From positions 1-64,000 of the forward strand of contig JAQGOG010000148.1 in NCBI GenBank assembly GCA_028293765.1: DNA of 64,000 nucleotides, given 5' to 3'. A program made the position numbers and the translations under genes. The stretch is from Gammaproteobacteria bacterium. GTDB taxonomy: Bacteria; Pseudomonadota; Gammaproteobacteria; Steroidobacterales; Steroidobacteraceae. Under the pieces are notes generated by a model, which was not told the origin of the DNA, ran no database searches, and was given only the letters and a program-made list of their open reading frames with translations. This document shows, one piece after another, positions 5,533 to 25,207 of the stretch (positions are counted from its first letter, which is position 1; every line of letters begins with the position of its first letter).

Positions 5533-6674
5533 CACGGCAACTTCGCAAGTCGCGCGTGCGCTGCCGCAATCGCGGCCTGGGAAGCGAAGGTGTCCGTAGG
5601 CGGGATGTCGAGCAGGGCGACGCGCTCGCCGGCATGCAGGCGCTGAACCCCGGCCGTCACAATGCGGCTGTGCACCCCAAGTCCACGCACCGCGACCTGC
5701 TCATGAGGAAGAAACTCCAAGATCTCGACTGGAACCGCTCGCACGCGTTCGGCCGAATCGACGATCCAGACTTCTGCGCCGCGCGGCGTTGGGGTCTGCG
5801 GCTGCAAAATGGCCGAGGCCGGTACGCTCACCGCACTCGCTGCTGTTGTAGCCTCGACGTACGCCGTCGCGGACATGCCGAGGCGCGCTGGAGCGTTCAC
5901 CGGAAGAACCGCCTTGATCCGGAAAGTGCGCGTCGCGCTGTCCGCCAGCGGCGCGATGTCGCGAACTATGGCGGCGAAGCTCTCCCGCGGAGCCACCCAG
6001 AGCGAGACCCGGATCGTCGCACCAGCGCTAAGGGCAGCCACCAGGTTCTCCGGAATATCGAACTGCACCTCGCGGTCAGCCGCGTCCGCGAGAGCAATGA
6101 CGGGCTGTCCTGCCGCGACGACCTGACCGGGGTCTGCAATGACATTCGTCACAACACCGTCTCGGTCGGCACGCAGCGTCGCGTAGCTCGAGGCATTGCG
6201 GGCGGCGTGTAGCTGCGCCTCGAACGACTGCGTGCGCTCATGCGCTTGGCGACTCTCCGAATCATGTCGGTCGAGTTCAGCCTCGCCGATCAAATCGCGC
6301 GTGCGAAGATCGCGGTAGCGCTCCAATTCGCGTGCGAGGAAGTCGTCGGCGCTCCGGGCGGCTTTAAATTGCGAGGCAAGACTCGTCTCCTCGAGCGCCA
6401 GGTCGAAGGAATCGAGCTGGGCAAGACGGTCGCCTTTGTGCACCAGGGTGCCCAGCTCGACCAGGCGCGCCAAGAGCTTTCCTGGAACGCGGAATCCCAC
6501 GAGCGCCTCGTGATGCGGGCGGATTTCTGCAGCGAACGCCCGGGTGGTGGCTTCGGCCGATGACGCGACGACCATCGAATACACGGGAACCCCAGGAACC
6601 TCGTCGGCAGTGCTCGAGTGACCGCATCCGGACAGCGGCACGAGCAAGATGCCCAGTGGCGCCCACAAAAACAT
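5532..6674 (-). CDS. RND efflux periplasmic adaptor (membrane fusion protein), lipoprotein
   Basis: 380 residues from the ATG at 6674. That start gives a clean lipoprotein signal MFLWAPLGILLVPLSGC with lipobox LSGC. An in-frame ATG at 6692 would add MYIHRQ and cannot be excluded. Family features: barrel-sandwich/lipoyl sequence GFRVPGKLLARLVELGTLVHKGDRLAQLD, an alpha-helical hairpin (about residues 100-160), then GVVTNVIADPGQVVAAGQPVIAL and a beta-barrel domain. It bridges the RND pump and the outer-membrane channel. It is preceded by a 60-base AT-rich leader containing a perfect palindrome and a 10-base motif also present ahead of the marR gene. Its stop overlaps the RND start. Confidence 0.93.
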   Translation of the reverse strand: MFLWAPLGILLVPLSGCGHSSTADEVPGVPVYSMVVASSAEATTRAFAAEIRPHHEALVGFRVPGKLLARLVELGTLVHKGDRLAQLDSFDLALEETSLASQFKAARSADDFLARELERYRDLRTRDLIGEAELDRHDSESRQAHERTQSFEAQLHAARNASSYATLRADRDGVVTNVIADPGQVVAAGQPVIALADAADREVQFDIPENLVAALSAGATIRVSLWVAPRESFAAIVRDIAPLADSATRTFRIKAVLPVNAPARLGMSATAYVEATTAASAVSVPASAILQPQTPTPRGAEVWIVDSAERVRAVPVEILEFLPHEQVAVRGLGVHSRIVTAGVQRLHAGERVALLDIPPTDTFASQAAIAAAHARLAKLP

Positions 6675-6680
6675 TTGTCT

Positions 6681-6711
6681 ATGTATATACATATATTCTA
6701 GCTTGCATGTA
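6681..6711 (-). promoter_or_regulatory. Candidate MarR operator region before the adaptor gene
   Basis: The AT-rich gap between marR and the adaptor gene holds the perfect 12-base palindrome ATGTATATACAT (6681-6692). It also holds the motif CTTGCATGTA (6702-6711, plus-strand reading), which recurs exactly at 7175-7184 just upstream of marR. MarR proteins often bind such AT-rich palindromes in their own promoters. The palindrome includes the alternative ATG of the adaptor, so binding here would affect an internal promoter or the leader. Inference from sequence symmetry only. Confidence 0.45.
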
Positions 6712-6734
6712 CAATCATGTATCGTGCGTTGCGC

Positions 6735-7163
6735 TCACGCCGGCGCGAGCCTGCTGGCTACCTGGAACGAGGCGCGCTTGATGGCGAGCGCCTTGGTCCG
6801 CCCCAGTCGCCGCTCAAACTCCGCCTGGGCGGATTCCCATTTCGGCTGCAGCTTCCGGAAGGTGGATTCTCCCAGCGATGTGAGATTCCATCTGCGCTCC
6901 CGGCGGTCGCGTCCACGGGTACTCGCAATCAGTCCGCCCTTTTTGATCAGCGCCAGTGTTCGCGTGGCTGTGGTCTGATCGATGCCAATAACATCGGCCA
7001 AATCCGTCGTCGTGAGGTTGGGAGCAAGTTTCAGCGCCTGCAGTACGGTGTATTGCGTGAGGTGCAGCCCGCTGTCGGCAAGTGCCGCCTCATAGAGCGC
7101 GGTCGCAGCCCTCGCGGCTTGTCGCAACGTTGCACAATAGCAAGGTAGTGACTGGAGTTTCAT
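6735..7163 (-). CDS. MarR family transcriptional regulator
   Basis: 142 residues from the ATG at 7163 (MKLQSLPCYC). Longer in-frame starts at 7181 and 7217 exist, but none has a clear Shine-Dalgarno sequence. The winged helix is seen in LTQYTVLQALKLAPNLTTTDLADVIGIDQTTATRTLALIKKGGLIAST, followed by the wing residues RGRDRRERRWNLTSLG that are diagnostic of MarR (D-x-R-DRR). Long helices at both ends would form the dimer interface. It lies 60 bases upstream of the adaptor gene on the same strand, so it probably represses its own operon and releases it on binding a drug or phenolic ligand. Confidence 0.9.
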   Translation of the reverse strand: MKLQSLPCYCATLRQAARAATALYEAALADSGLHLTQYTVLQALKLAPNLTTTDLADVIGIDQTTATRTLALIKKGGLIASTRGRDRRERRWNLTSLGESTFRKLQPKWESAQAEFERRLGRTKALAIKRASFQVASRLAPA

Positions 7164-7174
7164 GGGCGAGGAGT

Positions 7175-7190
7175 CTTGCATGTATATGCA
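7175..7190 (-). promoter_or_regulatory. Candidate MarR autoregulatory operator
   Basis: CTTGCATGTA at 7175-7184 is identical to 6702-6711 and overlaps the inverted repeat TGCAT-GTAT-ATGCA (7177-7190). It sits about 12 bases upstream of the preferred marR start. Two identical copies, one before marR and one before the first structural gene, suggest a shared operator. Confidence 0.4.
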
Positions 7191-7280
7191 TGCGTCGTCA
7201 AGACATTCACGCGCCACGTACGCCCAGCCCGAAGGTTCGTTCGAATCGCCTGCTCGAGTCCGCCCGGCTTTTGCGGACGG

Positions 7281-7640
7281 TCAATTTCGCAGCTGCAAAC
7301 CGAATTCGGTGGCGACAGTCGAGAGCCGTTTATCGATCGTCCAGAAGGGAAGCTTCGCCAACATCGCCGCAGCCAGCAGGTGGACGTCAATCCAGCCCAG
7401 GCCCCGCCCCATCAGGCGCCGGGCCTCGACAAACGCGAGCACTTCGTCGTGAGTAACCACCGGCACGTGCGGTAGCGCGATGAGCGAGCTCAACAATTTT
7501 CCGCGCTGGGCGAGATTGCCGCAGGCCAGTTCTCCGATCACGAACGAATGGGTCCAGACCTGCGCCTGCTCCAGCAGTTCCACAAGCGTGGCGTTGCGTC
7601 GGCGCAGATGATCCACCCAAACCGATGTGTCGACCAGCAC
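7281..7640 (-). CDS. vapC: VapC-type PIN-domain toxin ribonuclease
   Basis: 119 residues with a GTG start. The PIN fold is recognisable from MLVDTSVWVDHLR at the N-terminus (first acidic residue D4), the mid-protein ELACG (second acidic residue), GLGWIDVHLLAAA (third, D) and FWTIDKRLSTVATEFGL near the end (fourth, D). PIN toxins cleave RNA, commonly initiator tRNA or rRNA, with magnesium held by these acids. It follows the antitoxin gene with a 5-base gap, the standard order for vapBC. The pair lies directly upstream of marR but is probably a separate unit. Confidence 0.92.
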   Translation of the reverse strand: MLVDTSVWVDHLRRRNATLVELLEQAQVWTHSFVIGELACGNLAQRGKLLSSLIALPHVPVVTHDEVLAFVEARRLMGRGLGWIDVHLLAAAMLAKLPFWTIDKRLSTVATEFGLQLRN

Positions 7641-10073: not shown

Positions 10074-12017
10074 TTACCGAGGTCGATACGCGGCGAGCTT
10101 GCTCTGCGTCAGATCAGCCGCCGACTCGCACGCGAGCCCTGGCTCCTTGCGCGAGCTACGCATCAGAGCCGCGAAATCACTAGCGGGCACCGCAGGACTG
10201 AAGCAATAGCCTTGATACTGATCGCAACCCAATGCCTTGAGTACATCGAGTTGTTCAGACGTTTCGACGCCCTCCGCCACGACCTTCAAACGAAGGCTGT
10301 GGGCCAGCGAGACGATCGCCGTGACGATTGACGCGTCATCGGGCCGCGACAACAGCTCACTGATGAACCCTCGATCGATCTTCAATTTGTCGATTGGAAA
10401 GCGCCGCAGATAACTCATGCTCGAGTAGCCCGTGCCGAAATCGTCCACGGATACGAGCACCCCCATTCGACTCAACTGCTCCAGAATTCCGACCGACTGC
10501 TCGGGATCGCTCATCAGCGCACTTTCGGTAATTTCGACTTCCAGCAGCCGCGGATCGAGGTCCGCCGCCTGCAGGGCGCCCCGGATCATCTGCAACAGGT
10601 TGCCGTTGCGGAACTGAAACGCCGAAAGGTTGACTGCGACGCGCAGGTGCGCCAGACCTTCGAGCTGCCACAGCCGTGCCTGCCGGCACGCTTCGCGCAC
10701 CACCCACTCGCCGATGGAATCTATCAAGCCGCAGGCCTCCGCCAACGGAATGAACTCTCCGGGAAGAATGAGGCCCTTCTCGGGATGCCGCCAGCGTACC
10801 AGGGCCTCTGCTCCGTGGATCGCTCCCGTCCCGGTATCAACCTTGGGCTGATAGTGCAGTTCGAATTGCCGCAGTCCCAGCGCCGCGTGCAGTTCGCTCT
10901 CCAGCTTGACCTTCTCCTGCGTCTCGGCATTCATTCCGGGCGCGAAGCACTGGATGTTATTGCGGCCCCGCTGTTTCGCGCAGTACATCGCCGCGTCCGC
11001 GTTTGCGATCACCGTTTCAGCGGTCTTGCCGTCCTGCGGAAACAAGGCAATCCCGATACTGCAGGACGTACGGATGTCGACATTGCCGAGCCTGATGGGC
11101 GTCTGCAGCGATTCCATAGCTCGACGCGCGATGTCCTCGGCATCCTTCGGGTGCGCGATCCGGTCGATGATGAGAAGGAATTCATCGCCACCAAATCGCG
11201 CCACGGTATCCGTACTCCGGGCAACGCCCGCAAGGCGCTGGGCTACCTCCTTGATCAGCTCATCACCCGCCCGGTGCCCGAACGAGTCGTTGATGACCTT
11301 GAAGCGATCGAGGTCGAACATTGCGACTGCGAACGCGTGCCCGTCCCGCTCGGCGTATGCGATCGCCTGCGTCAGACGATCCTCCAGCAATACCCGGTTG
11401 GGCAGACCAGTCAGCATGTCATGGGTCGCGAGTTGCCGCAGTTGCCGGTTCGCGGCCTCCAGGCCCTGGGTGCGGGCTTCGACGACCCGCTCGAGATCCT
11501 GCACCTGACCGCGCAGCATCGACTCGTTGTCCCACTTGCGTGTCAAGGCGTTCGCACACTGCAATACTTCAATGGGCTCGAACGGCTTCTTTATCACGAG
11601 CAGCTTGTCAGAATGGTCGAGGCGGCCGACGACCTCGGTCCAATCGTAGTCGGAATGCGCCGAGCAGATGACGACCTGGACGTCCGGGTCAACCGCCCAC
11701 AACCTTTGAATCGTCTCCAAACCATCCCAACCTGGCGGCATGCGCATGTCGACAAACGCCAGCGAGTACGGTTGCCCCTCATCGAGCCCTCGCTTGATCA
11801 GCGCCACGCCCTCCTGCCCCTGAAATGCCACTTGCAGATCGAAGGCCGGACGCGACGACGGCACGAGCGTTTCGCCCAAAAGCAGACGTTCGGCCGCCAA
11901 CAGCGTCGTGTGCGAATCCGCCTCGCCAGCCAGGATCTTGAGAAAGTCCTCGTGAATGGCCCGATTGTCATCGATGACCAGTATTCGATGTCTACGCGGG
12001 ACGGAGGTGTCAGCCAT
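10074..12017 (-). CDS. Response regulator with REC, GGDEF and EAL domains (c-di-GMP turnover)
   Basis: 647 residues from the ATG at 12017, which has GGAG 8 bases upstream and overlaps the kinase stop by 8 bases. The REC domain (about 1-130) has ILVIDDNRAIHEDF, phospho-acceptor D in LAFVDMRMPP and the conserved K in VIKKPFEP. A short coiled coil leads to GGDEF (about 190-350) with an intact RFGGDEFLLI active site and an RSTD inhibitory I-site five residues before it. The EAL domain (about 365-615) has GAEALVRW, EITESALM, DDFGTGYSSMSYLRRFP and VVAEGVET, all catalytic residues apparently present. It can therefore potentially both make and degrade cyclic di-GMP under control of the adjacent kinase. 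Confidence 0.95.
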   Translation of the reverse strand: MADTSVPRRHRILVIDDNRAIHEDFLKILAGEADSHTTLLAAERLLLGETLVPSSRPAFDLQVAFQGQEGVALIKRGLDEGQPYSLAFVDMRMPPGWDGLETIQRLWAVDPDVQVVICSAHSDYDWTEVVGRLDHSDKLLVIKKPFEPIEVLQCANALTRKWDNESMLRGQVQDLERVVEARTQGLEAANRQLRQLATHDMLTGLPNRVLLEDRLTQAIAYAERDGHAFAVAMFDLDRFKVINDSFGHRAGDELIKEVAQRLAGVARSTDTVARFGGDEFLLIIDRIAHPKDAEDIARRAMESLQTPIRLGNVDIRTSCSIGIALFPQDGKTAETVIANADAAMYCAKQRGRNNIQCFAPGMNAETQEKVKLESELHAALGLRQFELHYQPKVDTGTGAIHGAEALVRWRHPEKGLILPGEFIPLAEACGLIDSIGEWVVREACRQARLWQLEGLAHLRVAVNLSAFQFRNGNLLQMIRGALQAADLDPRLLEVEITESALMSDPEQSVGILEQLSRMGVLVSVDDFGTGYSSMSYLRRFPIDKLKIDRGFISELLSRPDDASIVTAIVSLAHSLRLKVVAEGVETSEQLDVLKALGCDQYQGYCFSPAVPASDFAALMRSSRKEPGLACESAADLTQSKLAAYRPR

Positions 12018-13857
12018 GTGCATTCTCCACAGGTGCCAGCGGCAGTTCCAACACGAAAGTCGCTCCCAGGCCGGCTCCATGACTCTCGGCTCGCAACGTA
12101 CCGCCGAGCTCCTTGGCGGCCAGAGCGCCGCTATGCAATCCAAAGCCATGCCCGGTCTTCTTTGTCGTGAATCCGTGACCGAAGATGCGCGTCATGTTCT
12201 CAGGCAGGATTCCCACGCCGGTATCCGCGACTGCAACCTGAACGCCGGTTCCGCACGCACCAACCCTTATCGTGACACTCTTCCTGTCGGCAGACTCGCA
12301 GGCATCCTTGGCATTGCGCAATAGATTGACCAGTATCTGCAGAACCTTGTGCTTGTCCACCGTGATCGCCGGGACCGGCGCAAATTCGCGAACGATCGCA
12401 ATGGCATGGCGCTCGAAGCCGCTGGTGTTGATGCGCAGACTCTCTTCCACGAGGTGCGTGACATCGATCGTGTCGGTTGCGCCGGAGAGCTTGGCGTATC
12501 GTTGTTGCATCGCCACGATTTCCTTGATGTGATCGATGTTTCCCTGCAGGGACTGGAGCTCCTGCAACGCCATCGCCTGGTCGGCGGCGAGTTGCTTGGA
12601 AAGTTCGGCAAGGTAACGGGGCAGCACCTTGCCGCGCTCGTCAAGCGAAACGAAAGCGCCCAGGTCGGTGCGATGTTCCTCCAGGAGCGACACGACGCGA
12701 GCAAGTCCGGCCGTCCGCGATCTCTTCAGACCGTCGGCCACCAGGGTCGCCGACACGTTTACACTGTTCAGTACGTTGCCCACGTTGTGCAGCACATTGG
12801 TGGCCACTTCGGCCATTCCTGCCTGCCGCGAAGCGTCCCGCAATTGTCGCTGCAGTACATTCTCGCGCGCGGCCGCTTCGATCCGTTCGGTGACATCCAG
12901 ATCGATGCCGACGAGCCTGGGGCCGCTATCGGAGCAATCGGCAATGACCGCCGCTATCGATTCCACATGTCCAGTGCTGCCGTCGGGCTTTACGATGCGA
13001 TACTGCGTGCGCAACTGCTTGCGCTCATGCAGTGCAGTGGTCATCGCCGCCCGGGCGGCTACCCGGTCGGCGGGATGAACCAGGTCCAGCCACTCATCCA
13101 GTGTGGGTGGGACGGCGCGGTCCGACCGGCCGTAGAGTTCGTTCATCGTCTCGCTCCACCACACTTTGCAGCCATTCTCGTAAACTTCGTACACGCCAGC
13201 CCGTGCCGCCTGCGTTGCCATTCCGAATCGAATCGAGATCGTTTCCAGCTCGGCACGGCGTCGGCGTTCGATCGCGGCGTCCGCCTCAATCCTTTCCTGC
13301 AGCCGTCGACGGGTTGCGAGGACGAATACGACAGTCAGTATCAGGCTGACGAACAGCGCCGCGGTCACCTGTTGCTTCTGCCGCCGCGCGGAATCGACTG
13401 CATCGCGGACAACTGCTGCGTCGCGCCGTTCGAAATCCTCGTCGATCGCCTTGGTCAGCCGGTCGGCAGTTGCGATCTGTGCCCGCAAAGGCAGCAGCCG
13501 CTCCAAGGTGGTACCGCTCGGAATCTCAACTGCGAGCCGCGCTACCAACCCGGGCGCCTCACCGAGCACCTGCGACTCACCCCGGGATTTCAGCGTAGCC
13601 AGGAATGTGGCAGTCGCACGCAAGGCCTCGGCCGATTGCCGGCTCAGCGTACCGGTATCGACCGCCGCGGCGGCGCCGTTAGTGAATGTCCTGTAATTGG
13701 CGCGAGCTTCATTGGCCAGATTGCGCAAGGGCCGTGAATAGTCGAGCGCTGTGGCGCGGCGTCCGTCCGCCATCAATTGCGCCACCAACACGAAAGCGAT
13801 CGGCACGACTACGGCCAGGAACTGTAACCCGATAAGACTGTCGGTCGAACGTTTCAT
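12010..13857 (-). CDS. Membrane sensor histidine kinase with PAS domain
   Basis: 615 residues from the ATG at 13857 (MKRSTDSLIG); an in-frame ATG at 13869 is less likely because this start aligns exactly with the chemoreceptor at 18297. TM1 (about 10-30), periplasmic helical domain (31-162) and TM2 (163-182, ending VFVLATRRRL) are homologous to the first 190 residues of that receptor. A PAS domain follows (about 205-325, GRSDRAVPPTLDEWLDLVHPADR). The kinase core has the H-box VLHNVGNVLNS, N-box LVNLLRNAKDAC, G1 VADTGVGI and GFTTKKTGHGFGLH. It should phosphorylate the REC domain of the overlapping downstream gene. Confidence 0.94.
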   Translation of the reverse strand: MKRSTDSLIGLQFLAVVVPIAFVLVAQLMADGRRATALDYSRPLRNLANEARANYRTFTNGAAAAVDTGTLSRQSAEALRATATFLATLKSRGESQVLGEAPGLVARLAVEIPSGTTLERLLPLRAQIATADRLTKAIDEDFERRDAAVVRDAVDSARRQKQQVTAALFVSLILTVVFVLATRRRLQERIEADAAIERRRRAELETISIRFGMATQAARAGVYEVYENGCKVWWSETMNELYGRSDRAVPPTLDEWLDLVHPADRVAARAAMTTALHERKQLRTQYRIVKPDGSTGHVESIAAVIADCSDSGPRLVGIDLDVTERIEAAARENVLQRQLRDASRQAGMAEVATNVLHNVGNVLNSVNVSATLVADGLKRSRTAGLARVVSLLEEHRTDLGAFVSLDERGKVLPRYLAELSKQLAADQAMALQELQSLQGNIDHIKEIVAMQQRYAKLSGATDTIDVTHLVEESLRINTSGFERHAIAIVREFAPVPAITVDKHKVLQILVNLLRNAKDACESADRKSVTIRVGACGTGVQVAVADTGVGILPENMTRIFGHGFTTKKTGHGFGLHSGALAAKELGGTLRAESHGAGLGATFVLELPLAPVENAHG

Positions 13858-13994
13858 CAAACCTGCCATTCCGGGTAGCTGCGCTGCAACATGACAAACC
13901 AGTGTCCGGCGCCGCTCAGGGCATCGGCCCGGGTCCGTGCCGGTTTAGCGCCCGGAAGCTCCGATGCCTCGGCATGAGACGTTGATCACGATCC

Positions 13995-15731
13995 GTGAGG
14001 CTGCGAGCTCGCGTGGCCCCGATACCGGCGGTCATTCGGTCAAGAAGTCGGGGGACCCCGCCGATAACGGCTGAACCGGCCGGCGGTCGGCTCACGCCCG
14101 CACGAGCACCCCTCTGTCACTCGGAACCCACTGCATTGGCGCGCCGCTGTCTCATTTTTCTCGTCACCGCTCTGCTGGTCGCCGTGCCGGCGCATGCAGC
14201 GCGCTTTGATTTCGCCGCCCTGCAGACGCTGATCCAACAGCACGACATTGGTACCGTTGAGGAATTGCTTGCCGCACTGCCGCAAACAGTCCGCTCCCGC
14301 TTCGCTTTGATGTTCGAGAGCCGCAGTTTGCAAGGTGCCACTTTCAACGCTCCGCGGGCCATCCTCTTTGGGCCCGACGCACGCTTCATTGTGACCTTCA
14401 ACGGTGACCCGGGCGAACGCGGCTACCAGACGATTGAGACGCTGGAATTCGACGCGCAGACGAAAGAATTCCGCTTTCGCGAGCTCCAGTTCCCGTCCAA
14501 CGGTGCGGGCGCTACTGGAGTCGTCACGTCTGCAATCAACCCGGTGCGCTGTACACGATGCCACGGAAATCCCGCCAGACCTGTTTGGGATACCCACCCC
14601 TTATGGCCCGGTGCCTACGGTGAGCGCTACCTGGCGGGTCTGTCACGCAACGAACTTGCCGGCCTGTCGATTTTCCTCGCGCGACAGGCGGACCATCCCC
14701 GCTATCGCCACTTGGTTGGCGCCCAGCGCTTCATCGACCCCGCCACGTTTCGACCGACCGCATCGAGCCGCTACGCGGCGACGCCGGCAGAAGCGCCGAA
14801 CGCCGAGCTTGCGACCTATCTGAGTCAATTCCAATTTGAGGCAATCGCGCGCGAGCTGGCCCGACAACCGGCTTTCGGCGTATTTCAATACGCATTGCTC
14901 GGCACTGCCGACGACGCCTGCGGCCCTGTCGCGGACTTCTATCCCGCCGCACTGTGGCGCGAGCAGGAGCCCCGATTTGAAGACTTCGTGCGCGGCACAG
15001 CAGTTGCCAATTCCCAGCAGACCCGATTCAAGGCAGTGCGCGCGGCGAACGCAGGAGGATCGCGAACCGCCCGAAGTGTCCCGACGCAAGCCAGCGCCCT
15101 CACCGGACTGCGGTTCGTGGTTGCAGCGGCTCTGGAGCTTTCCACCCGCGATTGGAGTCTGGCTCTCGAGAAGGGAACTTACGACTTTACCGTGCCTCCG
15201 GCCTCCAGGACCTCGATGCGAGAGGCGTTGCTCGAGGAAGTGATGCGGCGTGATGCCACAATCCGGGAACTGTTCCCCTACGCCACTTCCTCGGATGGCG
15301 ATCGCTACTGCACGTATCTGAAAAGGCGCAGCAAGGCCGCCCTGCGGGAATTCATGCGCAAGACGGCCGTCGCCGGGGGCGCCGGCGCGACCGCCGGCTC
15401 ATCCTCAAACGAAGGCGCCGCGCAGCCGGACACCCGCAGCGAGTCGCCGCCCGGAACTGCCGCTGTTCCTGCGGCTCCTACGGCGCTGCAGCGGTGTAGC
15501 CAATGTCACGAGACGGGAATAGCTCCGTCCCTGGCCTTTTCCAACGCCACTGAACTCAAACGCGACCTGCGGGAAAGGCCGTCAGCGCACGGCGCCTTGC
15601 TCGATGAGATTCGATTCCGCCTGTCGGCCGCTGCCGGCGCGCAAACAATGCCGCTTGGTGTGGCACTCCCGGAAGCCGAGCGGCGCGCGCTGGAGGCCTA
15701 TTTCATCGCATTGGCGGCCTCGCCGGACTGA
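13995..15731 (+). CDS. Diheme c-type cytochrome-like exported protein
   Basis: Up to 578 residues. The first ATG in frame is at 13995, but the signal peptide (RRCLIFLVTALLVAVPAHA) begins some 48 residues later, so a TTG at 14136 may be the true start. Two heme c attachment motifs are present, CTRCH at about residue 186 and CSQCH at about residue 500, with a conserved-looking stretch RPVWDTHPLWPGAYGERY after the first. No methionine ligands could be assigned. The protein is probably periplasmic and does electron transfer or redox sensing. I do not recognise a named family. It is divergent from the kinase operon and 210 bases upstream of the SCO gene, so it may head the rightward operon. Confidence 0.7.
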   Translation: MRLRARVAPIPAVIRSRSRGTPPITAEPAGGRLTPARAPLCHSEPTALARRCLIFLVTALLVAVPAHAARFDFAALQTLIQQHDIGTVEELLAALPQTVRSRFALMFESRSLQGATFNAPRAILFGPDARFIVTFNGDPGERGYQTIETLEFDAQTKEFRFRELQFPSNGAGATGVVTSAINPVRCTRCHGNPARPVWDTHPLWPGAYGERYLAGLSRNELAGLSIFLARQADHPRYRHLVGAQRFIDPATFRPTASSRYAATPAEAPNAELATYLSQFQFEAIARELARQPAFGVFQYALLGTADDACGPVADFYPAALWREQEPRFEDFVRGTAVANSQQTRFKAVRAANAGGSRTARSVPTQASALTGLRFVVAAALELSTRDWSLALEKGTYDFTVPPASRTSMREALLEEVMRRDATIRELFPYATSSDGDRYCTYLKRRSKAALREFMRKTAVAGGAGATAGSSSNEGAAQPDTRSESPPGTAAVPAAPTALQRCSQCHETGIAPSLAFSNATELKRDLRERPSAHGALLDEIRFRLSAAAGAQTMPLGVALPEAERRALEAYFIALAASPD

Positions 15732-15940
15732 GAAATGCCGCACGCCGACCCGTGCGCCAGGGCATGTCACGCACGCTTGGCCGCCAACTCGCAACAGTCT
15801 GTGTGACGGGCTTCGCATTTGACAGAACTCCTGACGATGACTCCTCAAGGTTTGTTGTAAAAGGTCGAGACTAAAGTCGTGTGAGTGAACTTCATACACG
15901 ATGTTGGCTCGATCCCTATTTCAGCGCGGCGCGTATTTAC

Positions 15941-16489
15941 ATGAGCAGAGCATTGACGATGTTGGCCGCGGCGCTGGTCGCCTTCGGACTGATTCACGAA
16001 GTGCATTCGGCGAGCACCGCGGGCGCCGCAACCCGGTTGCAACAGCTCCCGGCGGCATGGCGCGACGATCAAGGTAACGCGTTCGATCTGCACGGGCTCC
16101 TGGGGCACAACCTCGCGCTGACCATGGCTTACGCAACGTGTCACCGGATTTGTCCGCTGACCATGCAGCAGCTGCAGAGACTGCAACGGGACTTCGATGC
16201 TCGCGGCATCGACGCGCAGTTCCTGGTGATCGGTTACGACCCCGAGAAGGACGACTCCGCAGTCTGGCGTCAATATCGCAAAACGCGGCATCTCACACGT
16301 AGCAACTGGCATTTCCTGGTCGGGACACCCGCGACGGTCGAGCAGACTGCAAGACGACTCGGCTTCGAGTTCTGGCGCTACGACGAGCACGTCATGCACG
16401 ACTCCCGGATCGTCATGTTTGACGCACGCGGCAACCTGAGCACCGCCGGCGGGCTGGCGCCGCGGGACCGCAGCTGGATGACAGAATGA
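15941..16489 (+). CDS. SCO1/SenC family copper-binding thioredoxin-fold protein
   Basis: 182 residues from the ATG at 15941, which gives a good signal peptide (MSRALTMLAAALVAFGLIHEVHS); a GTG at 15881 is also open. The SCO copper site is intact: CHRICPLTM supplies the CxxxCP pair (ATCHRICP) and the distal histidine is in EHVMHDSRIVMFD. The rest, LVIGYDPEKDDSAVWRQY and WHFLVGTP, is typical of the family. SCO proteins deliver copper to cytochrome c oxidase or act as thiol/copper redox sensors. Here the neighbours are a porin, a binding protein and a chemoreceptor rather than oxidase genes, so a sensing or maturation role for this locus is possible. Confidence 0.85.
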   Translation: MSRALTMLAAALVAFGLIHEVHSASTAGAATRLQQLPAAWRDDQGNAFDLHGLLGHNLALTMAYATCHRICPLTMQQLQRLQRDFDARGIDAQFLVIGYDPEKDDSAVWRQYRKTRHLTRSNWHFLVGTPATVEQTARRLGFEFWRYDEHVMHDSRIVMFDARGNLSTAGGLAPRDRSWMTE

Positions 16490-16501
16490 GGCGGCAGGCG
16501 C

Positions 16502-17854
16502 ATGCAGTCCAAACAGCTTAGTGACAGCCACGGCATCCGGCGGTGGGCTGCGGTGCTCCTTTTGGGAGGTTGCTGTCACCCGTTTGTCGCCCGCGCGGCA
16601 CTCGATGACACTGACCGGGTCGCGGTGTTGGAGCAGAAGCTCGATCAAAGCCTGCGGTTGATCGGAGAGCTGTCGGCGAGGGTTCGGGACCTGGAAACGC
16701 AGGTGGCTGCCCAAAACTCGCAGGCGGTCACCGCCGGCGGGCCTGCGTTGGGCGGGGCCGCACCGGAATCGCAAACCGCAACCGAGCAGCGGCTGGTGGC
16801 GGTGGAGCAAACGGTGACCCAGATTGCGGCGGGAGCCGGCCAGCGTGCCGAGGACACCGGCCTGCCGTTGCACGGCTTCGCGGATGTCGGAGTCGGCAAT
16901 CACAATGCCAATTTCCCGGAGCACAAGGGAGCCGCCGTCGGCTCGCTCGATTTCTTCCTGACACCGCGACTGGGGACCCGCACTCGCGCCCTCTTCGAGC
17001 TCAATTTCGAGACCGCTGAGGATGGCGCCATTGGTGTCGACCTGGAGCGGGCACAGATCGGGTATCAGTTCAGCGATTCAGCTACCGTCTGGCTCGGTCG
17101 CTTTCACACCCCCTATGGTTACTACAACACGGCGTTTCACCACGGTCAGCAGATCGCCACTTCTCTCAGGCGCCCGCGCTTTCTCCAATTCGAGGATCAG
17201 GGCGGCATACTTCCGGCGCACACGGTCGGAGCATGGCTTACCGGCTCGGAACGGATCGGCGACGCAAGGCTCACCTACGATTTTTACGTAGGCAACAGCC
17301 AGCGGATTACCGGGCGCAGCCTCGACATGAACAATCCGGGCAATGCGCATGGCAGCGCGATCGTGGGCGGCAATGTGGGAGTTCTCTTGGGCGGCGCTCT
17401 GGATGGCCTGAAACTCGGAGTGCACGCGTTCACTACTCGGATCGAGGATCAGGATCTGATACCCGCATATGTCACGCGCGTCAGGAGCTACGGCGCCTAC
17501 GCCGTGTACGATACGGACCGCTGGGAGCACATCGCCGAGTTCTATGTCTTCGACGATGAGAATCTGTCTGGACCTGCCGGATCACATCGCAGCGAAGCTG
17601 GGTTCATACAGTTGGGGTACCGTGCCGGTCGGTCCGTCCCGTATGCTCGCTTTGAGCGTGCCGCCCTGCAGCAATCCGACAACTTCTTCGCCGCCCAGCA
17701 CTCGGGCACCTCTTACCACCGCTACGCCCTGGGAATTCGCTTTGATCTGGACCTCAAGTCTGCACTGAAACTGGAGCTGGCGCAGACGCAGGATTCCGAT
17801 CGGGACTTCATCAGCTACGACGAAGCGCTGCTCCAATACGCGATCCGCTTCTGA
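16502..17854 (+). CDS. Outer-membrane porin-like beta-barrel protein
   Basis: 450 residues. A signal peptide (about 1-33, ending VARA) is followed by a coiled coil with heptads (VAVLEQKLDQSLRLIGELSARVRDLETQV), an Ala/Gly-rich linker, then a beta-barrel from HGFADVGVGNHN to the terminal aromatic residue (LLQYAIRF). The ending in phenylalanine and alternating aromatic strands fit an outer-membrane porin of the phosphate-selective porin O/P or general porin type. It starts 12 bases after the SCO stop and ends 23 bases before the binding-protein gene, so the genes are co-transcribed. It probably admits the ligand sensed by this locus; the substrate is unknown. Confidence 0.8.
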   Translation: MQSKQLSDSHGIRRWAAVLLLGGCCHPFVARAALDDTDRVAVLEQKLDQSLRLIGELSARVRDLETQVAAQNSQAVTAGGPALGGAAPESQTATEQRLVAVEQTVTQIAAGAGQRAEDTGLPLHGFADVGVGNHNANFPEHKGAAVGSLDFFLTPRLGTRTRALFELNFETAEDGAIGVDLERAQIGYQFSDSATVWLGRFHTPYGYYNTAFHHGQQIATSLRRPRFLQFEDQGGILPAHTVGAWLTGSERIGDARLTYDFYVGNSQRITGRSLDMNNPGNAHGSAIVGGNVGVLLGGALDGLKLGVHAFTTRIEDQDLIPAYVTRVRSYGAYAVYDTDRWEHIAEFYVFDDENLSGPAGSHRSEAGFIQLGYRAGRSVPYARFERAALQQSDNFFAAQHSGTSYHRYALGIRFDLDLKSALKLELAQTQDSDRDFISYDEALLQYAIRF

Positions 17855-17877
17855 CGTGTGACTGCGGGAGCCGCTAC

Positions 17878-18282
17878 ATGTATGCACGCTCGATGAAGAC
17901 ACTTTCTGCGGCGCTGCTGTTCGTGGCGAGTGTCACGACGCACGCCGCAGATTTGTATGTCATCTGCAACCCGGGGGTGTCCATTGCCGCAGCCGATGTG
18001 CGCGATGTTTTCCTCGGCGACAAGCAGTTCTCCGGGACGGTCAAGCTGTTACCGCTCGATAACGCCGGCGCACAACAGATGTTCCTGCAAACTGTATTGA
18101 AAATGGACGCCGCGAAATATTCGACGGCATGGACCAAGAAGTCGTTTCGGGATGGGCTGAATCCGCCAGCCGTAGCGGGAAGCGACGCCGAGGCCCTGGC
18201 ATACGTCAAACGCACGCCCGGCGCCTGCAGTTACATCAGTCTGGCGGCCCCCACTGGCGTGGTGGTCATCGCAAAGTATTGA
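17878..18282 (+). CDS. Short phosphate-binding-protein-like periplasmic protein
   Basis: 134 residues. The start at 17878 has GGGAG 7 bases upstream; the signal peptide is [24 protein letters not shown]. The mature part, [27 protein letters not shown] then [25 protein letters not shown] and TPGACSYIS, resembles the small PstS-like proteins annotated as phosphate ABC transporter substrate-binding protein. It is about 110 mature residues, far shorter than true PstS (about 320), and no ABC transporter genes are nearby. It lies between porin and chemoreceptor genes with a 14-base gap to the latter, which suggests that it presents a ligand to the receptor rather than to a transporter. Ligand unknown. 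Confidence 0.72.
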
Positions 18283-18296
18283 GAACGAGGGTCAGC

Positions 18297-20363
18297 ATGA
18301 AGCGCTGGACAGACAATCTGATCGCTCTGCAATACCTGATGGTCGTGTTGCCGGTCACGCTGGTCCTGATCGGTCAGAGCGTCGCGGATGCGAGGCGCGC
18401 AAATACGCTGGCGCGCTCGAGCCCCCTGCAGGCACTCGCCAGCGACGTACGTGCAAGCTACAAAGCGTTCGAGAACGGTGCGGCTGATGCGGTCGATACC
18501 GGAGCGCTGAGCACGCAATCCGTCGATGCGCTCGCGGCAGCTGCGACCCGCCTGAGGCAACTCGTGAGCGCTGATCCGGCTGGCCGCTTCGCCGCCACCA
18601 GGGATGCCGTTGCCAGCCTCGCCGCGGCGGTGCCGCCAGGCGCGACGCTCGGAGCTCTCATGCCATTGCGCGCCGGCATCAAGTCGGCTGACGCCCTGAC
18701 CCGGACGCTCGATGAGACCCTGACTGCCGAGAATCAGGCCGTCATTCAGGACGCCATCCGCTCAGCCAACCTCGAAAAGATTGTGGTTCCCCTTGCCATT
18801 CTGCTCAGCATTGCAGTCACCGCCGTGTTTGTCCTGGCTACTCAGCGTCGCTTGCGGGCGCGCCTGGAAGCCGAAGGGCTCGCGGCCTCGCAGACCCTGC
18901 GGATCAAGAATGCGCTCGACAACTGCAGCGTCGGCATCATGGTGGCCGATGCGGAGCGCAGCGTCGTGTACGCAAATCGTGCCGCCGTTGAACGCTTGCG
19001 ACGCTCCGAAGCGAACGGACAATCGTTTGCTCTGCCATTTTCGACCAGCACGTTGATTGGTACCCACCTGGACGTAATACTCGACAACCACGCTGCGAAA
19101 AGCCGCGCAACGAGCTCCCGGAGAGTGCGCCTCGAGCTCGGCGGGCGGATCTACTTCGTGAGCGAGGACCCGGTTCTGGACCCAGGCGGCCGACCTGTCG
19201 GTTGGGTCATCGAGTGGTCCGATCGGACCGAAGCAGTGGCTCTCGAGCAGGAAGTCGCCCGCATCGTCGCGGCTGCCGCATGCGGCGACTTCCATTATCG
19301 AATCTCCCTGGCCGCTACCGGACACGATTCGGTCGAGGACCAATTCATCACCGAGCTTGCAGGGAGCATCAACAAGGTAATGCAGACCAGCGAGACGGGC
19401 CTGAAGGACATCGCCCGTGTGCTGCAGGCTCTGGTGCAGGGCAATCTGACCGAACGTATTGAGAGCGACTACGGGGGTACGTTCGGTGAGCTGAAGAATT
19501 ATTCCAACCGGACGACTGCCCGCCTCCAGGAAGTGGTCGGACACATAAAGTCAGCGGCGGCGGCCATTGATGCGGCGACGGATGAGCTTATCTACGGCAC
19601 CACGGACCTCAGTGCCCGCGCTGAGACACTGGCCGCGCGGATCGAGGAGACTTCGAATGCAATGCGGGAGTTGTCGACGACGGTGCGCTCAAATGCCGAC
19701 GACGCTCGCGAGGCGGATCGGTTTGCCGCGGGCGCCGCTGCCGTTGCTTCCGAAGGCCGCACGGCCGTTGCGCGGGCCGCCACCACAATGGGGGAGATTT
19801 CCGAAGCCTCGCAAAAAATCGCCCAGATAATCGGCGTTGTGGACGAAATCGCATTTCAAACCAACCTGTTGGCGTTGAACGCCGCCGTAGAAGCTGCGCG
19901 TGCCGGGGAGCACGGCCGCGGTTTCGCGGTGGTTGCCTCGGAGGTCCGCAATCTCGCGAGTCGCAGCGCGGCTGCCGCCCGCGAGATCAAACAGTTGATC
20001 GGCGACTCGGTACGCAGAGTCTCCGAAGGCATGGAACTCGTGAAGACTGCCGGCACGACCATGAGCGAAGCGGCCACTGCGGTTCAAAGAGTTACCGGGC
20101 TGATCAGCCGGATCTCTGCCGCGTCACAATTGCAGAGCCGGGATATTGAAAGCCTGGGCGACGTCATGGGGCAAATGCACGAGGCCACGCGGAAGAACAC
20201 GGAACTGGTCAGTGATTCAGCCGCAGCGGTAGACTCGTTGCACAATCAGGCGGCAGCACTTGTCGCAAGCGTCGCAGTGTTCACGCTCGAGAGGGCTGAC
20301 AGCAACAACGTCCGCCCTGGAGACTCGGCGCCGTACCGGGACACGCAGGCCGCGATGGCGTGA
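18297..20363 (+). CDS. Methyl-accepting chemotaxis protein with PAS domain
   Basis: 688 residues. The ATG at 18297 has GAGG 7 bases upstream. TM1 (about 11-29), periplasmic helices (30-162) and TM2 (163-182) align without gaps to the kinase at 12010-13857. A PAS domain follows (about 203-315, [22 protein letters not shown]), then HAMP-like linkers ([15 protein letters not shown]) and a long cytoplasmic coiled coil. The hairpin tip has [19 protein letters not shown] and [15 protein letters not shown], the universal CheA/CheW contact. No C-terminal CheR-binding pentapeptide is seen. It should route the shared periplasmic signal to the chemotaxis apparatus; no che genes are in the window. Confidence 0.95.
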
Positions 20364-20480: not shown

Positions 20481-21986
20481 TCATTCCCCTGCCGCTGCGC
20501 CCCCATTCGCCATCTGCTTTCGTGTGTCAAGGGCACCGTGCAACGTGTCGCCGGCGTGTTCTATCGGCGGATCGCCCATCGATTCGAACAGCGCCGCGGT
20601 ATCAGCTAGCCGCGACGCCCGCGCGCGGACGTGCTGAACACGCGCGCTCTGACACTGCTGCCCTGCTGTCAACCTTGCATAGAACGGCGTCGCGCCGAGC
20701 TTGTAGCGCGACTCTGTATCGCGCTGGGTATCACAGGCTGCGGTCGCTGCACGGGCCGTCTGCACAAGCGTGTTCGCATCCTCATCCAGTGATACCAGGG
20801 TGTCGGCGACGTTCTGGAACGCGGCTAGCACGGTCTGCTTGTACTGGGCCACGGCGGCGTCATGGCTCGCCTCGTACTGGTGCTTGCGAGCAACCAGAGC
20901 GCCGCCGCGGAACAGCGGCTGCGTCAGCGACGCGCCGACGCTCCAAATGGCGCCAGCGGGTGACGTGAATGTCGACCAGTCGAAGCCACCGCGGCCGTAT
21001 GACGCCGACAGTGTCAAAGACGGAAACATCGATGCCGTGGCCGCGCCGGCCTCGTCCGCGGTCGCTCGGACGGCCGCCTCTGCAGCGAGGATGTCAGGAC
21101 GCTGGTGCAATAGGTCGGAAGGCACCGCGACAGGCACGGTGTCCGGAAGATGCAAAGCGTCGAGGGACAACGGTGTGGGAGCTTGGTCCGGCGTCCGGCC
21201 CAACAGGAGCGCTTGGGCATGACGCACGGCAAGGGCCTGCGCCCGCAGCGCCGGGAGCGTCGCGGCCGCATTCGCCGCATCCTGCTCGGCCGCCAGCATA
21301 TCGTCGTGAGACGCGCTGCCGAGCTTGTAGCGCGCGGCGACCTGCTGGGCACGTAGTTCGCCGAGCGCGACCATTTCTTCCGTCGCGGAGACCTGCTCGT
21401 GTAGCGAGGCCGCATTGATCGTCGCCGTTACGATATTTGCCGCAAGCGCACGCCGTGTCGACTCGAGTTGGAAAACCTGTTGCCGGACCTGACCGGCCAA
21501 CGCGCGGTCGGCAAGAAATGCGGCACCGAAGAAATCGAAGGTGTACGAAGTTTGAACCTGCGCCGCAAAGATGTTTTCGAGGAAAGTCTGCTGCGGCAGA
21601 ACCGGAATACCGAGGGCCCGTTGACGCGTCGGACTGAACGTGACGTCGACGCTCGGTAACATCGATTGGCCGATCTGCGAACGCAACGCCTCGCGCGCAG
21701 ACCTCAGTGTGCTCTGAGCGGCAGCCAGCGAAGGGCTGTGATTGAGCCCCTCTTCCACCAGAGCATCGAGCGCATCCGACTGATACGCCTGCCACCACTC
21801 CGGCACGGGCCGCACCCCGATAGCTATCTTCTGCGCGACCCCGTCGGCCGTCGGCAGCTGCACAGGCTGCCCTTCAACCGAATAATGCACCGGCGATGGC
21901 ATCTGCGGGGGATTGCGGTCGGGACCGAACGCGGTGCACGCGGACACAACGAAAGTGAGCCCAGCCAGCAGAACTTGCGCTTTCAT
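20481..21986 (-). CDS. RND efflux outer-membrane channel lipoprotein (NodT family)
   Basis: 501 residues. MKAQVLLAGLTFVVSACTAFGP is a lipoprotein signal with lipobox VSAC. The rest is a TolC-fold channel (PVPEWWQAYQSDALDALVEEGL; LLHQRPDILAAEAAVRATADEAG). An AGGGG lies 8 bases upstream of the ATG, which overlaps the RND stop by 4 bases. Last gene of the second tripartite efflux operon (adaptor, pump, channel). It is not closely similar to the first channel at 974-2422, so the two pumps are separate systems rather than a recent duplication. Confidence 0.93.
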   Translation of the reverse strand: MKAQVLLAGLTFVVSACTAFGPDRNPPQMPSPVHYSVEGQPVQLPTADGVAQKIAIGVRPVPEWWQAYQSDALDALVEEGLNHSPSLAAAQSTLRSAREALRSQIGQSMLPSVDVTFSPTRQRALGIPVLPQQTFLENIFAAQVQTSYTFDFFGAAFLADRALAGQVRQQVFQLESTRRALAANIVTATINAASLHEQVSATEEMVALGELRAQQVAARYKLGSASHDDMLAAEQDAANAAATLPALRAQALAVRHAQALLLGRTPDQAPTPLSLDALHLPDTVPVAVPSDLLHQRPDILAAEAAVRATADEAGAATASMFPSLTLSASYGRGGFDWSTFTSPAGAIWSVGASLTQPLFRGGALVARKHQYEASHDAAVAQYKQTVLAAFQNVADTLVSLDEDANTLVQTARAATAACDTQRDTESRYKLGATPFYARLTAGQQCQSARVQHVRARASRLADTAALFESMGDPPIEHAGDTLHGALDTRKQMANGGAAAGE

Positions 21987-24900
21987 CGTGCTATCCCCTT
22001 TTGCCCGGGCATTGCCCGCTCACCGTGGATCCTGGGTGGCCCTTCGTCCCGCCGGACACGGAACCACAAGGCATACAGCGCCGGCAGATAAACCAGCGTC
22101 AATACCGTTGCCACCGTGATGCCACCCATCAGGGCGGTCGCCATCGGACCGAAGAAGTTACTGCGCAACAGCGGAATCAGCGCCAGCACCGCCGCCGCCG
22201 CGGTCAGGGTAATCGGTCGGAAACGACGGACGGTCGCACCGATCACCGCCTCGAATCGACTGTGTCCCGCCCGAATATCCTGCTCGATCTGATCGACCAG
22301 GATCACCGAGTTGCGCATGATGATGCCGAACATCGCAATCGTCCCGAGCAACGCCACGAAGCCGAATGGCATGTGGAACAGCAACAACGCGATGACCACC
22401 CCGATCAGCCCGAGCGGGGCGGTGAGCACGACCAGCAGCACGCGGCTGAAACTCTGCAACTGAACCATCAGGAGCACCAGTACGGCGACCAGGAGCACCG
22501 GCATCTGTACGTTGATGGAGCTCTGTGCCTTCGCGTTTTCTTCGACTGCCCCGCCGATCTCGATCCGGTATCCGACGGGCAACTGCTCGCGCAACGTGGT
22601 AAGCGCCGCGTTGACCCGGTTCGTGACGTCGATCCCCTGTGCGTTGTGTTGCACGTCCGCCTGCACGGTGATCGTCGGCTGTCGGTCGCGTTCCCAGACC
22701 ACGCCATATTCGAGCCCGTAGGTAAAATGACCGAGTGCGGCGAGCGGCACCGCCGTCCCATTCTGCGACGGGAGCGCCAGGCGTTCGATCTGCGACGGGT
22801 CGACGCGGTCGTGTTCCGGCGCCCGCAGATCGACGCCGATGAGCTTGTCGCGCTCGCGGAACTGCGTGATCGTATAGCCGGTCAGCGACATCTGCAGATA
22901 GTTCGCGATCTCCTGCGACGAGATATTGAGCTGACGCGCCCTGGTCTGATCGACTTCAAAGTGGACCGAGCGTTCGGCCGGCTCATCCCAGTCGTACTGG
23001 ACATTGGCCGTATCGGGGTTGGTGCGCATCACCTTTGCAACCTGCTCGGACCATTGACGGACGGTGCCGATCTCCGGCCCGCTGACGCGAAACTGCACCG
23101 GGAAGCCGATGGGAGGGCCGTTCTCCAGCCGGCTGATTCGTGTGCGGACCGACGCGTAGTCGGTGCGCAGCACATCAGCCAGAACGTGGGCCAGCTTCTC
23201 GCGATCCTTGACGCTCTTTGCCGTCACGACGAACTGAGCAAAGTTCGGCGCCGCCAGCTGCTGGTCGAGCGGCAGATAGAAGCGCGGTGCTCCCGCACCG
23301 ACGAAGTCGATGAAGTGATCGATCTCGGGCCGTTTCGCGAGCGTAGCCTCGAAACGTTGCGCCTCGCGCAGTGTCGCCGCAAACGAAGCCCCTTCCGGCA
23401 AGCGGAGGTCGACCATCAACTCGGGTCGGTCCGAGCTCGGAAAGAACTGCTGCGGCACGAGTTTGAATGCCGCGAGAGCCACCACGAACACTGCCAGCGT
23501 GACGACCAGCACCAAGCGGCGGCGGTCGACACACCATGCGATCCAGCCACGCAGGCGGCGGTAGAATTTCGTGTCGTAGACGTCATGGTGCTCGGCATGG
23601 GCCGGCTCGGACTCCTGCCCCGCATCGTCGTGATGGCCGAATGCGCGGCGGGTGGGGTGCTCGGACATGATCCGGTAGCCGAGCAACGGGATCACGATCA
23701 CCGCAGCAAGCCACGACAGCAACAGCGCGATTGCCGAGACTTCGAAAATCGAGCGCGTGTATTCGCCGGTCGCCGATTTCGCCAGTGCGATCGGCAGAAA
23801 GCCCGAGACGGTGACCAGTGTCCCGGTGAGCATCGGGAACGCCGTACTGGTGTAAGCGAAGGCCGCCGCACGCAGCCGGTCGTAACCTTGTTCGAGTTTC
23901 ACGGCCATGGTCTCGACCGCGATGATGGCGTCGTCGACCAACAGCCCCAACGCCAGAATCAGCGTGCCGAGCGACACCTTGTGCAGCCCGATATTGAACA
24001 GATACATGCAGAGCGCAGTCCCGGCCAATACCAGCGGGATCGAAATGACAACCACCATCCCGGTACGAAAGCCGAGGCTGAGCAGGCTGACCACCAGCAC
24101 GATCCCGATCGCTTCGGCGACCGCCTCGACAAAATCGTCGACCGAATGCCCGACCGCCTGCGGCATGCTCGCCACCTGCACGAGCTTGAGTCCCGCGGGG
24201 AGCGCGGCACGCAGTCTCGCGGTCTCGGCGTCGAGCGCTTTGCCGAGCGCGATCACATCGCCCGACGGCACCATCGTCACGCCAATGCCGAGCACCGGTT
24301 TGTTGTCGAAGCGCATGTACTGCGTCGGCGGATCGGTATACCCGCGCTTGATCGTCGCAATGTCACCGAGCCGCAGCACCCGGCCGTTGACGCGAATCAG
24401 CGTGTCGCCGAGCTTCTCGATGTCCAGGAACTGGCCGCTCGGCCGGACGTAGACGCGGTCAGCGGCGGTCGTGAAGAGCCCGGCGCCGGCAACCGCATTT
24501 TGCGCGTCGACGGCGTCAGCGATCTGCTGCGGCGTGAGGCCGAGCTTCGCGAGTTGGGCGTTGGCAATCTCGACGTAGACGCGTTGTTCCTGATCGCCGA
24601 TGAAGTCGACTTTGTTCACGTTCGGTACGCGCAACAACTCGGTGCGCAGGCGTTCCGCATAGTCGTGCAACTGCGCGAACGAGAAGCCGTCGCCTTCGAA
24701 GGCATAGAGGTTCGTGTAGACATCGCCGAACTCGTCGTTGAAGTACGGCCCCTGGACTGCAGCCGGCAAGGTGTAGGCGATGTCGCCAACCTTCTTCCGG
24801 ACCCGGTACCACGTCTCAGGCACCTGCGAGGGCGAGGCGGCATCCTTGATAGTGAAGAACAGCGTCGACTCTCCGGGCCGCGAATAGCTGCGCAGGAAAT

Positions 24901-25207
24901 CGACATCAGAAGTCTCCTGCAGCTTGCGGGCGATCCGGTCGGTCACCTCCTCCTGGACCTGCCGCGCGGTCGCACCGGGCCAGAGCGTGCGGATCACCAT
25001 GACTTTGAAGGTGAATGGCGGATCCTCGGACTGCGCCAGCTTGCCGTACGACAACACGCCGAACAGCGTTATCAGCACTAGAAGAAAGATCACCAGCGCC
25101 TGGTGCTGCAGGGTCCAACTGGATAGGTTGAACCGATGATTTACTTCGGGCGGCGCGGCAGCCGGACCCGACATGCCACCCAGATGCTCTGGGTGCTCCC
25201 GGCTCAC
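21983..25207 (-). CDS. RND multidrug efflux permease (HAE-1/AcrB-like)
   Basis: 1074 residues from a GTG at 25207 with GGGAG 7 bases upstream; it overlaps the adaptor stop by 4 bases. It carries a polar N-terminal extension of about 28 residues before the first membrane segment. Family features: SEDPPFTFKVMVIRTLWPGATARQVQEEVTDRI (porter domain, quoted in part), TM4 proton relay GLLVDDAIIAVE and TM10 IIMRNSVILVDQ, with Arg at the AcrB Lys940 position as in the first pump. The cytoplasmic loop after TM6 is long and His/Glu-rich (HHDDAGQESEPAHAEHHD). It expels amphiphilic compounds; the substrate is unknown. Confidence 0.95.
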   Translation of the reverse strand: MSREHPEHLGGMSGPAAAPPEVNHRFNLSSWTLQHQALVIFLLVLITLFGVLSYGKLAQSEDPPFTFKVMVIRTLWPGATARQVQEEVTDRIARKLQETSDVDFLRSYSRPGESTLFFTIKDAASPSQVPETWYRVRKKVGDIAYTLPAAVQGPYFNDEFGDVYTNLYAFEGDGFSFAQLHDYAERLRTELLRVPNVNKVDFIGDQEQRVYVEIANAQLAKLGLTPQQIADAVDAQNAVAGAGLFTTAADRVYVRPSGQFLDIEKLGDTLIRVNGRVLRLGDIATIKRGYTDPPTQYMRFDNKPVLGIGVTMVPSGDVIALGKALDAETARLRAALPAGLKLVQVASMPQAVGHSVDDFVEAVAEAIGIVLVVSLLSLGFRTGMVVVISIPLVLAGTALCMYLFNIGLHKVSLGTLILALGLLVDDAIIAVETMAVKLEQGYDRLRAAAFAYTSTAFPMLTGTLVTVSGFLPIALAKSATGEYTRSIFEVSAIALLLSWLAAVIVIPLLGYRIMSEHPTRRAFGHHDDAGQESEPAHAEHHDVYDTKFYRRLRGWIAWCVDRRRLVLVVTLAVFVVALAAFKLVPQQFFPSSDRPELMVDLRLPEGASFAATLREAQRFEATLAKRPEIDHFIDFVGAGAPRFYLPLDQQLAAPNFAQFVVTAKSVKDREKLAHVLADVLRTDYASVRTRISRLENGPPIGFPVQFRVSGPEIGTVRQWSEQVAKVMRTNPDTANVQYDWDEPAERSVHFEVDQTRARQLNISSQEIANYLQMSLTGYTITQFRERDKLIGVDLRAPEHDRVDPSQIERLALPSQNGTAVPLAALGHFTYGLEYGVVWERDRQPTITVQADVQHNAQGIDVTNRVNAALTTLREQLPVGYRIEIGGAVEENAKAQSSINVQMPVLLVAVLVLLMVQLQSFSRVLLVVLTAPLGLIGVVIALLLFHMPFGFVALLGTIAMFGIIMRNSVILVDQIEQDIRAGHSRFEAVIGATVRRFRPITLTAAAAVLALIPLLRSNFFGPMATALMGGITVATVLTLVYLPALYALWFRVRRDEGPPRIHGERAMPGQKGIAR

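Follow-up and report, generated by a model that had tools for sequence, protein, structure and literature searches.

Why do a histidine kinase and a chemoreceptor encoded in divergent operons carry the same sensor module, and are the genes that lie between them parts of one sensory system? The question is raised by a cluster of seven genes in a stretch of 64,000 nucleotides (positions 1 to 64,000 of contig JAQGOG010000148.1, assembly GCA_028293765.1; hereafter, the window) from a gammaproteobacterium of the Steroidobacteraceae, a family of little-known, mostly uncultured bacteria. We favor, with somewhat more confidence than doubt, the view that these genes make up a sensing cassette that faces the periplasm and can be joined to different outputs; within it, a signal would be relayed from a porin to a small binding protein and on to the shared sensor. 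Direct support comes from the shared sensor itself, the linkage and co-occurrence of the genes, the exchange of outputs, the predicted folds, and a wider pattern in which porin, binding-protein, and receptor genes are found together. The genes and modules of the cluster are as follows.

10074–12017, minus strand: response regulator with receiver, GGDEF, and EAL domains (Pfam; GGDEF and EAL motifs, and an RxxD site 5′ of GGDEF)
12010–13857, minus strand: sensor histidine kinase with the shared sensor, PAS_3, an LHNVGNVLN box, and HATPase_c (Pfam and motifs)
13282–13857, minus strand: shared sensor module of the kinase, residues 1–192 (sequence comparison)
13995–15731, plus strand: exported diheme c-type cytochrome-like protein with two CxxCH motifs (start codon uncertain)
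15881–16489, plus strand: SCO1/SenC protein (probable start, 15941) carrying the CxxxC motif, as CHRIC, and a distal His
16502–17854, plus strand: outer-membrane porin-like protein, its gene 23 bases 5′ of the binding-protein gene
17878–18282, plus strand: small exported binding protein with the predicted fold of one PstS lobe and conserved C30 and C117
18297–20363, plus strand: chemoreceptor with the shared sensor, PAS, HAMP_2, and MCPsignal (Pfam)
18297–18872, plus strand: shared sensor module of the chemoreceptor, residues 1–192, a predicted four-helix bundle

The N-termini of the kinase and the chemoreceptor align without a gap, with 93 identities in 190 residues (95 in 192), and the original prediction, which had rested on this alignment, was correct as to its length, its identities, and the motifs and positions that it quoted. 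The best of 2,000 shuffled comparisons reached 36 identities in 190 (mean, 17.8). As had also been claimed, the two proteins diverge entirely after the module: beyond approximately residue 192 they match at chance level, and residues 192–215 add no identities. As DNA, the first 570 bases of the two genes are 53% identical, and the pair is therefore no recent copy. A search of the organism's own genome (6.6 Mb in 211 contigs) at E values up to 1 recovered these two copies alone, with a mutual E value of 3.6e-45, and no third.

The module was found not to be a ubiquitous annotated domain, a point singled out beforehand as a test of the prediction. No Pfam family matched any of 22 members better than E 0.005, and the families listed were unrelated by name apart from AppA_4HB, a weak four-helix-bundle entry seen in one of the 22 (E 0.028); TarH, 4HB_MCP, CHASE3, and NIT were absent from the 20 Pfam families listed for these members at E values up to 1. 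A remote kinship with known Pfam four-helix families may nonetheless exist. In a sample of 246 genomes of the order the sensor was present in eight (E up to 1e-5), all from one family and representing four of 67 genera; in a sample of 369 genomes of the class it was found in the organism's own genome alone (E up to 1e-4). Among 119 relatives there were 11 matches (E up to 0.001), one of which, a partial match of 63 residues in G010 (E 8.2e-4), is doubtful, so that G010 is left out of the tally of sensor genomes. Finally, a scan of a genome collection with a single peptide pattern, which sets a lower bound, yielded at least 20 loci, all from Gammaproteobacteria or metagenome-assembled genomes of Proteobacteria; the entry L018/L050 is a contig-end fragment. 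Every sensor genome of known kinship belongs to one family, and the module is, to judge from these searches, rare, private to that family, and unknown to Pfam.

The prediction that the neighboring genes are conserved together was likewise borne out. The SCO, porin, and binding-protein genes were present in 15 of 17 sensor-bearing genomes (those of the window, G039, G034, G041, G053, G658 [L037], G033, G066, G070, G284, G242, G655, G656, G657 [= G277], and G659), and no binding protein was seen in the sensor genomes G047 and G051 (82% and 81% complete, respectively). In the order sample the binding protein was found in nine genomes at E values below 1e-50 (13 at 1e-8); all eight sensor genomes also held it, in the same four of 67 genera. 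This co-occurrence gave Fisher probabilities of 3e-14 by genome and 1.3e-6 by genus, both of them inflated by kinship. Among 15 genomes picked for a sensor match, the binding protein was present in 12, the misses being G047, G051, and the doubtful G010.

What changes from relative to relative is the output. A kinase and a GGDEF-EAL regulator accompany the heme protein, SCO, porin, and binding protein in G034, G041, G053, and L037. The sensor is carried by a chemoreceptor found with SCO, porin, and binding protein in G070, G284, G242, and G659, the last of which has the heme protein there too. In G066 and G033 it is carried by a hybrid kinase of approximately 950 residues (domains verified in G066) whose gene adjoins those for SCO, porin, and binding protein, and a further hybrid kinase of this sensor type is encoded at another place in G034, G041, and G053. 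No diheme gene was seen in the cassettes of G066, G070, G242, and G284. There are thus three outputs on one sensor: kinase plus GGDEF-EAL regulator, chemoreceptor, and hybrid kinase. The claim that a kinase and a chemoreceptor share one sensor stands, but as a single cluster the complete seven-gene arrangement was seen only in the window and in G039, the closest relative found (its sensors are 87% and 90% identical to those of the window), where a contig break separates the porin gene from that of the binding protein. In G659 both receptors occur, at two separate places.

A maximum-likelihood tree of 22 sensors, from which the G659 chemoreceptor was left out, places the sensor of the window chemoreceptor with three kinase sensors (support 96/94), whereas three other chemoreceptor sensors form a separate group (94/50, which is not strong). 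Given the well-supported branches, the chemoreceptor label must have been gained or lost at least twice. From this grouping and these changes it follows that outputs have been exchanged on this sensor.

If the sensor is private, the binding protein is not. A structural model of its 134 residues (mean predicted local distance difference test score [pLDDT], 88) superimposes on the PstS structure 4lat with a Z score of 11.6 and a root-mean-square deviation of 2.5 over 107 residues. The model aligns to one stretch of Escherichia coli PstS, residues 77–208 of 9k3x_E, which we take to be the second lobe (the lobe boundaries being assumed), and the other lobe is missing; as modeled, the protein is a single PstS-like lobe, or half-PstS. 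At the sequence level, the profile match to Streptococcus pneumoniae PstS was weak (E 0.042), comparison with the full PstS gene of locus L024 yielded no alignment, and Pfam PBP_like_2 matched two of 18 family members and not the window protein. Among the matches listed for plasmid relatives, 11 of 15 were annotated as "phosphate ABC transporter substrate-binding protein" and four as hypothetical.

Members of this wider family occur in 82 of the 369 class genomes (E up to 1e-6), in up to eight copies each and at 150 places. In addition to the window's own we examined 63 of these copies, in 60 loci, most of them among the highest-ranking matches. The 53 upstream genes included 25 matches to Porin_4, six to OMP_b-brl, and three to Porin_O_P (Pfam, counted without resolving overlaps). 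Among 44 downstream genes on the same strand encoding at least 250 residues, three of them from the organism's own genome, were 28 receptor genes: 12 for GGDEF-EAL proteins, three for GGDEF proteins, seven for methyl-accepting chemotaxis proteins (MCPs), and six for kinases. This tally comprises 27 genes recognized by BLAST with the window's domains and one kinase recognized by Pfam, and the Pfam counts agree. Control genes from the same loci gave three of 55 with GGDEF(-EAL), MCP, or kinase domains in the same BLAST comparison. Only one of the 44 downstream genes encoded part of an ATP-binding cassette (ABC) transporter, and a Pfam domain scan found no such part among the seven genes of the cluster; for these reasons solute uptake is an unlikely role for the binding protein. 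Of 25 matching plasmid records we examined six annotated loci, and an MCP or EAL gene lay within two genes of the binding-protein gene in four (Pseudoalteromonas, Caballeronia, Pseudomonas aeruginosa, and Ideonella) and in neither of the other two (Alteromonas and Saccharobesus). Porin, half-PstS, and receptor thus appear to form a common cluster in the class, and the cluster of the window would be one branch of a modular front end on the periplasmic side.

Several loci encountered in this survey may be recorded here. The organism's own genome has, outside the window, three more clusters of porin, half-PstS, and histidine-kinase genes (L111, L112, and L113), whose kinases are of the HAMP-HisKA type and lack the window's sensor module. 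In L131, from a genome with eight copies (G300), three half-PstS genes stand in tandem on one contig with genes for proteins of approximately 390 residues between them. L077 (positions 4132–7382) encodes a kinase and regulator that are 51% (kinase core) and 47% (receiver) like the window pair, with another sensor, less than 1 kb from a cluster of porin, half-PstS, and MCP genes. In L194, on a plasmid of Alteromonas mediterranea, a half-PstS gene and the next, hypothetical gene lie less than 2 kb from the csf3-csf1 genes of a type IV CRISPR system.

Taken with what the individual genes encode, these findings suggest how the cassette would work. A solute would pass through the porin and be bound or presented by the single-lobe PstS-like protein, which would dock on the four-helix sensor of both kinase and chemoreceptor. 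The kinase would then phosphorylate the receiver-GGDEF-EAL regulator and so change the level of cyclic di-GMP (c-di-GMP), the chemoreceptor would bias swimming, and SCO, together with the diheme protein in kinase-type clusters, would add copper or redox control. The kinase gene adjoins the regulator gene, whose first bases (start, 12017) are also the last of the kinase gene, and the motifs of the pair are intact, as fits two-component regulation of c-di-GMP. On the other side, 14 bases separate the binding-protein gene from that of the chemoreceptor, which has an MCPsignal domain; the genome has seven CheW and two flagellin matches, and it is plausible that one cue sets both swimming and c-di-GMP. 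The intervening genes encode what the original prediction had described, a porin, a short binding protein, an SCO protein, and a diheme protein, with the SCO start probably at 15941 and the heme-protein start uncertain. The SCO product matches Pfam SCO1-SenC (PF02630) above the cut-off (E 2.1e-15); the porin, binding protein, and heme protein of the window have no Pfam match above the family cut-off.

A number of observations weigh against this scheme. The kinase is not beside the binding protein in three genomes (in G656, G657, and G659 the kinase and regulator genes stand apart, yet SCO, porin, and binding-protein genes occur elsewhere in the genome) and perhaps also in G655, whose assembly is fragmented into short contigs, and in G216 the cassette is present but no sensor match was found. 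In the wider family, 16 of the 44 downstream genes encode no recognized receptor, and for 19 of the 63 copies no downstream gene encoding 250 residues or more lies on the same strand, some of these copies being at contig ends; several of these 19 have an MCP gene 5′ of the porin or on the opposite strand. Moreover, PstS clamps its ligand between two lobes, and a single lobe could do the same only if paired with something.

Might the sensor instead bind a small ligand by itself, with porin and binding protein merely raising the periplasmic level of that ligand? An AlphaFold2 model built on the 22-sequence alignment (mean pLDDT, 81) predicts a four-helix bundle between two membrane helices, and its structural neighbors include NarQ and PcaY_PP, helical sensors that bind their ligands directly. 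With VIA-align, NarQ (5jef_B) gave a Z score of 10.8 over 178 aligned residues, a score that unrelated helical bundles match, and PcaY_PP gave 11.4; the LytS sensor of the XylFII–LytS complex was also among the fold matches. As VIA-align itself notes, however, helical bundles reach such Z scores through their arrangement alone. Foldseek returned a best E value of 0.15, with NarQ at a TM score of 0.62 over 201 columns but an E value of 0.97, and searching solved structures by sequence gave no credible match, the best (E 0.0018) being a de novo helical protein. We rejected a family assignment from fold, the top Z score (12.6, for QseE) lying below the value of approximately 13 that VIA-align names for helical bundles. 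Also against direct binding, the binding protein, improbable as a component of uptake, is a class-wide partner of receptors with differing outputs, and we consider this explanation unlikely.

We attach a similarly low probability to a second explanation, in which the thiol or copper state of C30 and C117 of the binding protein is controlled by SCO and the diheme protein, and the sensor responds to that state rather than to a solute. Cassette SCO proteins retain CxxxC and the C-terminal His in all 16 compared, and the bacterial SCO protein PrrC is linked to redox signaling. Among 81 aligned binding proteins, both cysteines are present in all 12 with SCO just upstream, whereas 68 of the other 69 lack the pair, the exception, L019, ending at a contig end before SCO. 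At position 66 all 13 members of this cysteine clade, the window protein included, have Gln, whereas 47 of the 68 other proteins have Arg or Lys, which hints at an altered ligand. The correlation at first appeared perfect but was broken by G659, which has SCO, porin, heme protein, and sensor but a cysteine-free binding protein; with three later relatives the count becomes 14 of 15. In L113 an SCO-like match lies at a distance of 3.5 kb from a binding protein that lacks the cysteines, and this match was not counted as just upstream. Furthermore, the cysteine clade may be one lineage and the correlation a single event; SCO is not beside most binding proteins of the wider family; and no diheme gene turned up in the four cassettes named above.

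That the genes are adjacent through common descent, without joint function, is very improbable: sensor genomes of known kinship do all come from one family, so that counts are inflated, but the cassette accompanies differing output genes, in differing orders, and co-occurs with the sensor even when unlinked. Nor do we count as members the OprM-like and RND (resistance-nodulation-division) efflux genes at 20481–25207, whose orientation converges on the chemoreceptor operon; in the relatives examined, the cassette has no close counterpart of them beside it, and the RND genes found near relatives are 22%–24% identical to those of the window.

The relay from porin to binding protein to sensor can be extended into a bolder account, which we offer tentatively. 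Porin and half-PstS would be a standard, class-wide front end that plugs into the adjacent receptor; the family would have gained SCO, in most cases the cysteine pair, and the private sensor; and one copper- or redox-gated cue would drive kinase, c-di-GMP, and chemotaxis together.

How does the cluster compare with known systems? Besides XylFII–LytS, receptors activated by binding proteins include TorT–TorS, LuxP–LuxQ, and NspS–MbaA. The window resembles XylFII–LytS-type systems in having a binding-protein gene beside a membrane receptor gene, and in the fold match to the LytS sensor; it differs in that its binding protein, as modeled, has one PstS-like lobe instead of two, in the added porin and SCO, and in having one sensor type serve several outputs. 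From PstS, which the binding protein resembles in its predicted one-lobe fold, it is set apart by the missing lobe, the lack of a transporter gene in the cluster, and the lack of a Pfam match. With NarX, NarQ, and other four-helix-bundle sensors the module would share a helical bundle flanked by two membrane helices, but it has no credible sequence match and is not in Pfam. In the PrrBCA redox system, as in the window, an SCO protein (PrrC) is encoded with a sensor kinase; we know of no porin, binding protein, or chemoreceptor in that system. Activation of several kinds of receptor by solute-binding proteins is described as general and widespread (PMC9602780), with chemoreceptors, sensor kinases, and c-di-GMP enzymes named as targets. 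Our search of the PubMed Central literature, which does not extend to subscription papers, found no description of the window cluster or of porin/half-PstS/receptor clusters. Receptor activation by binding proteins is therefore known, and it is the single-lobe, porin-linked, output-swapping form that was not found there. The claim of a composition without described counterpart holds to that extent, but the combination of porin, half-PstS, and receptor is common in the class.

On the evidence of its genes, the cluster in the window would be a local form of a more widely distributed sensing kit, furnished with a private four-helix sensor and swappable outputs. Binding proteins that feed receptors have so far been known one by one. 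If it is true that a single-lobe binding protein works with a porin and swappable outputs, this would amount to a general rule by which outside cues are wired to behavior in the class. Many genes at present labeled as phosphate ABC transporter substrate-binding proteins would likewise acquire a probable role, and a testable route to the ligands of orphan receptors would open.

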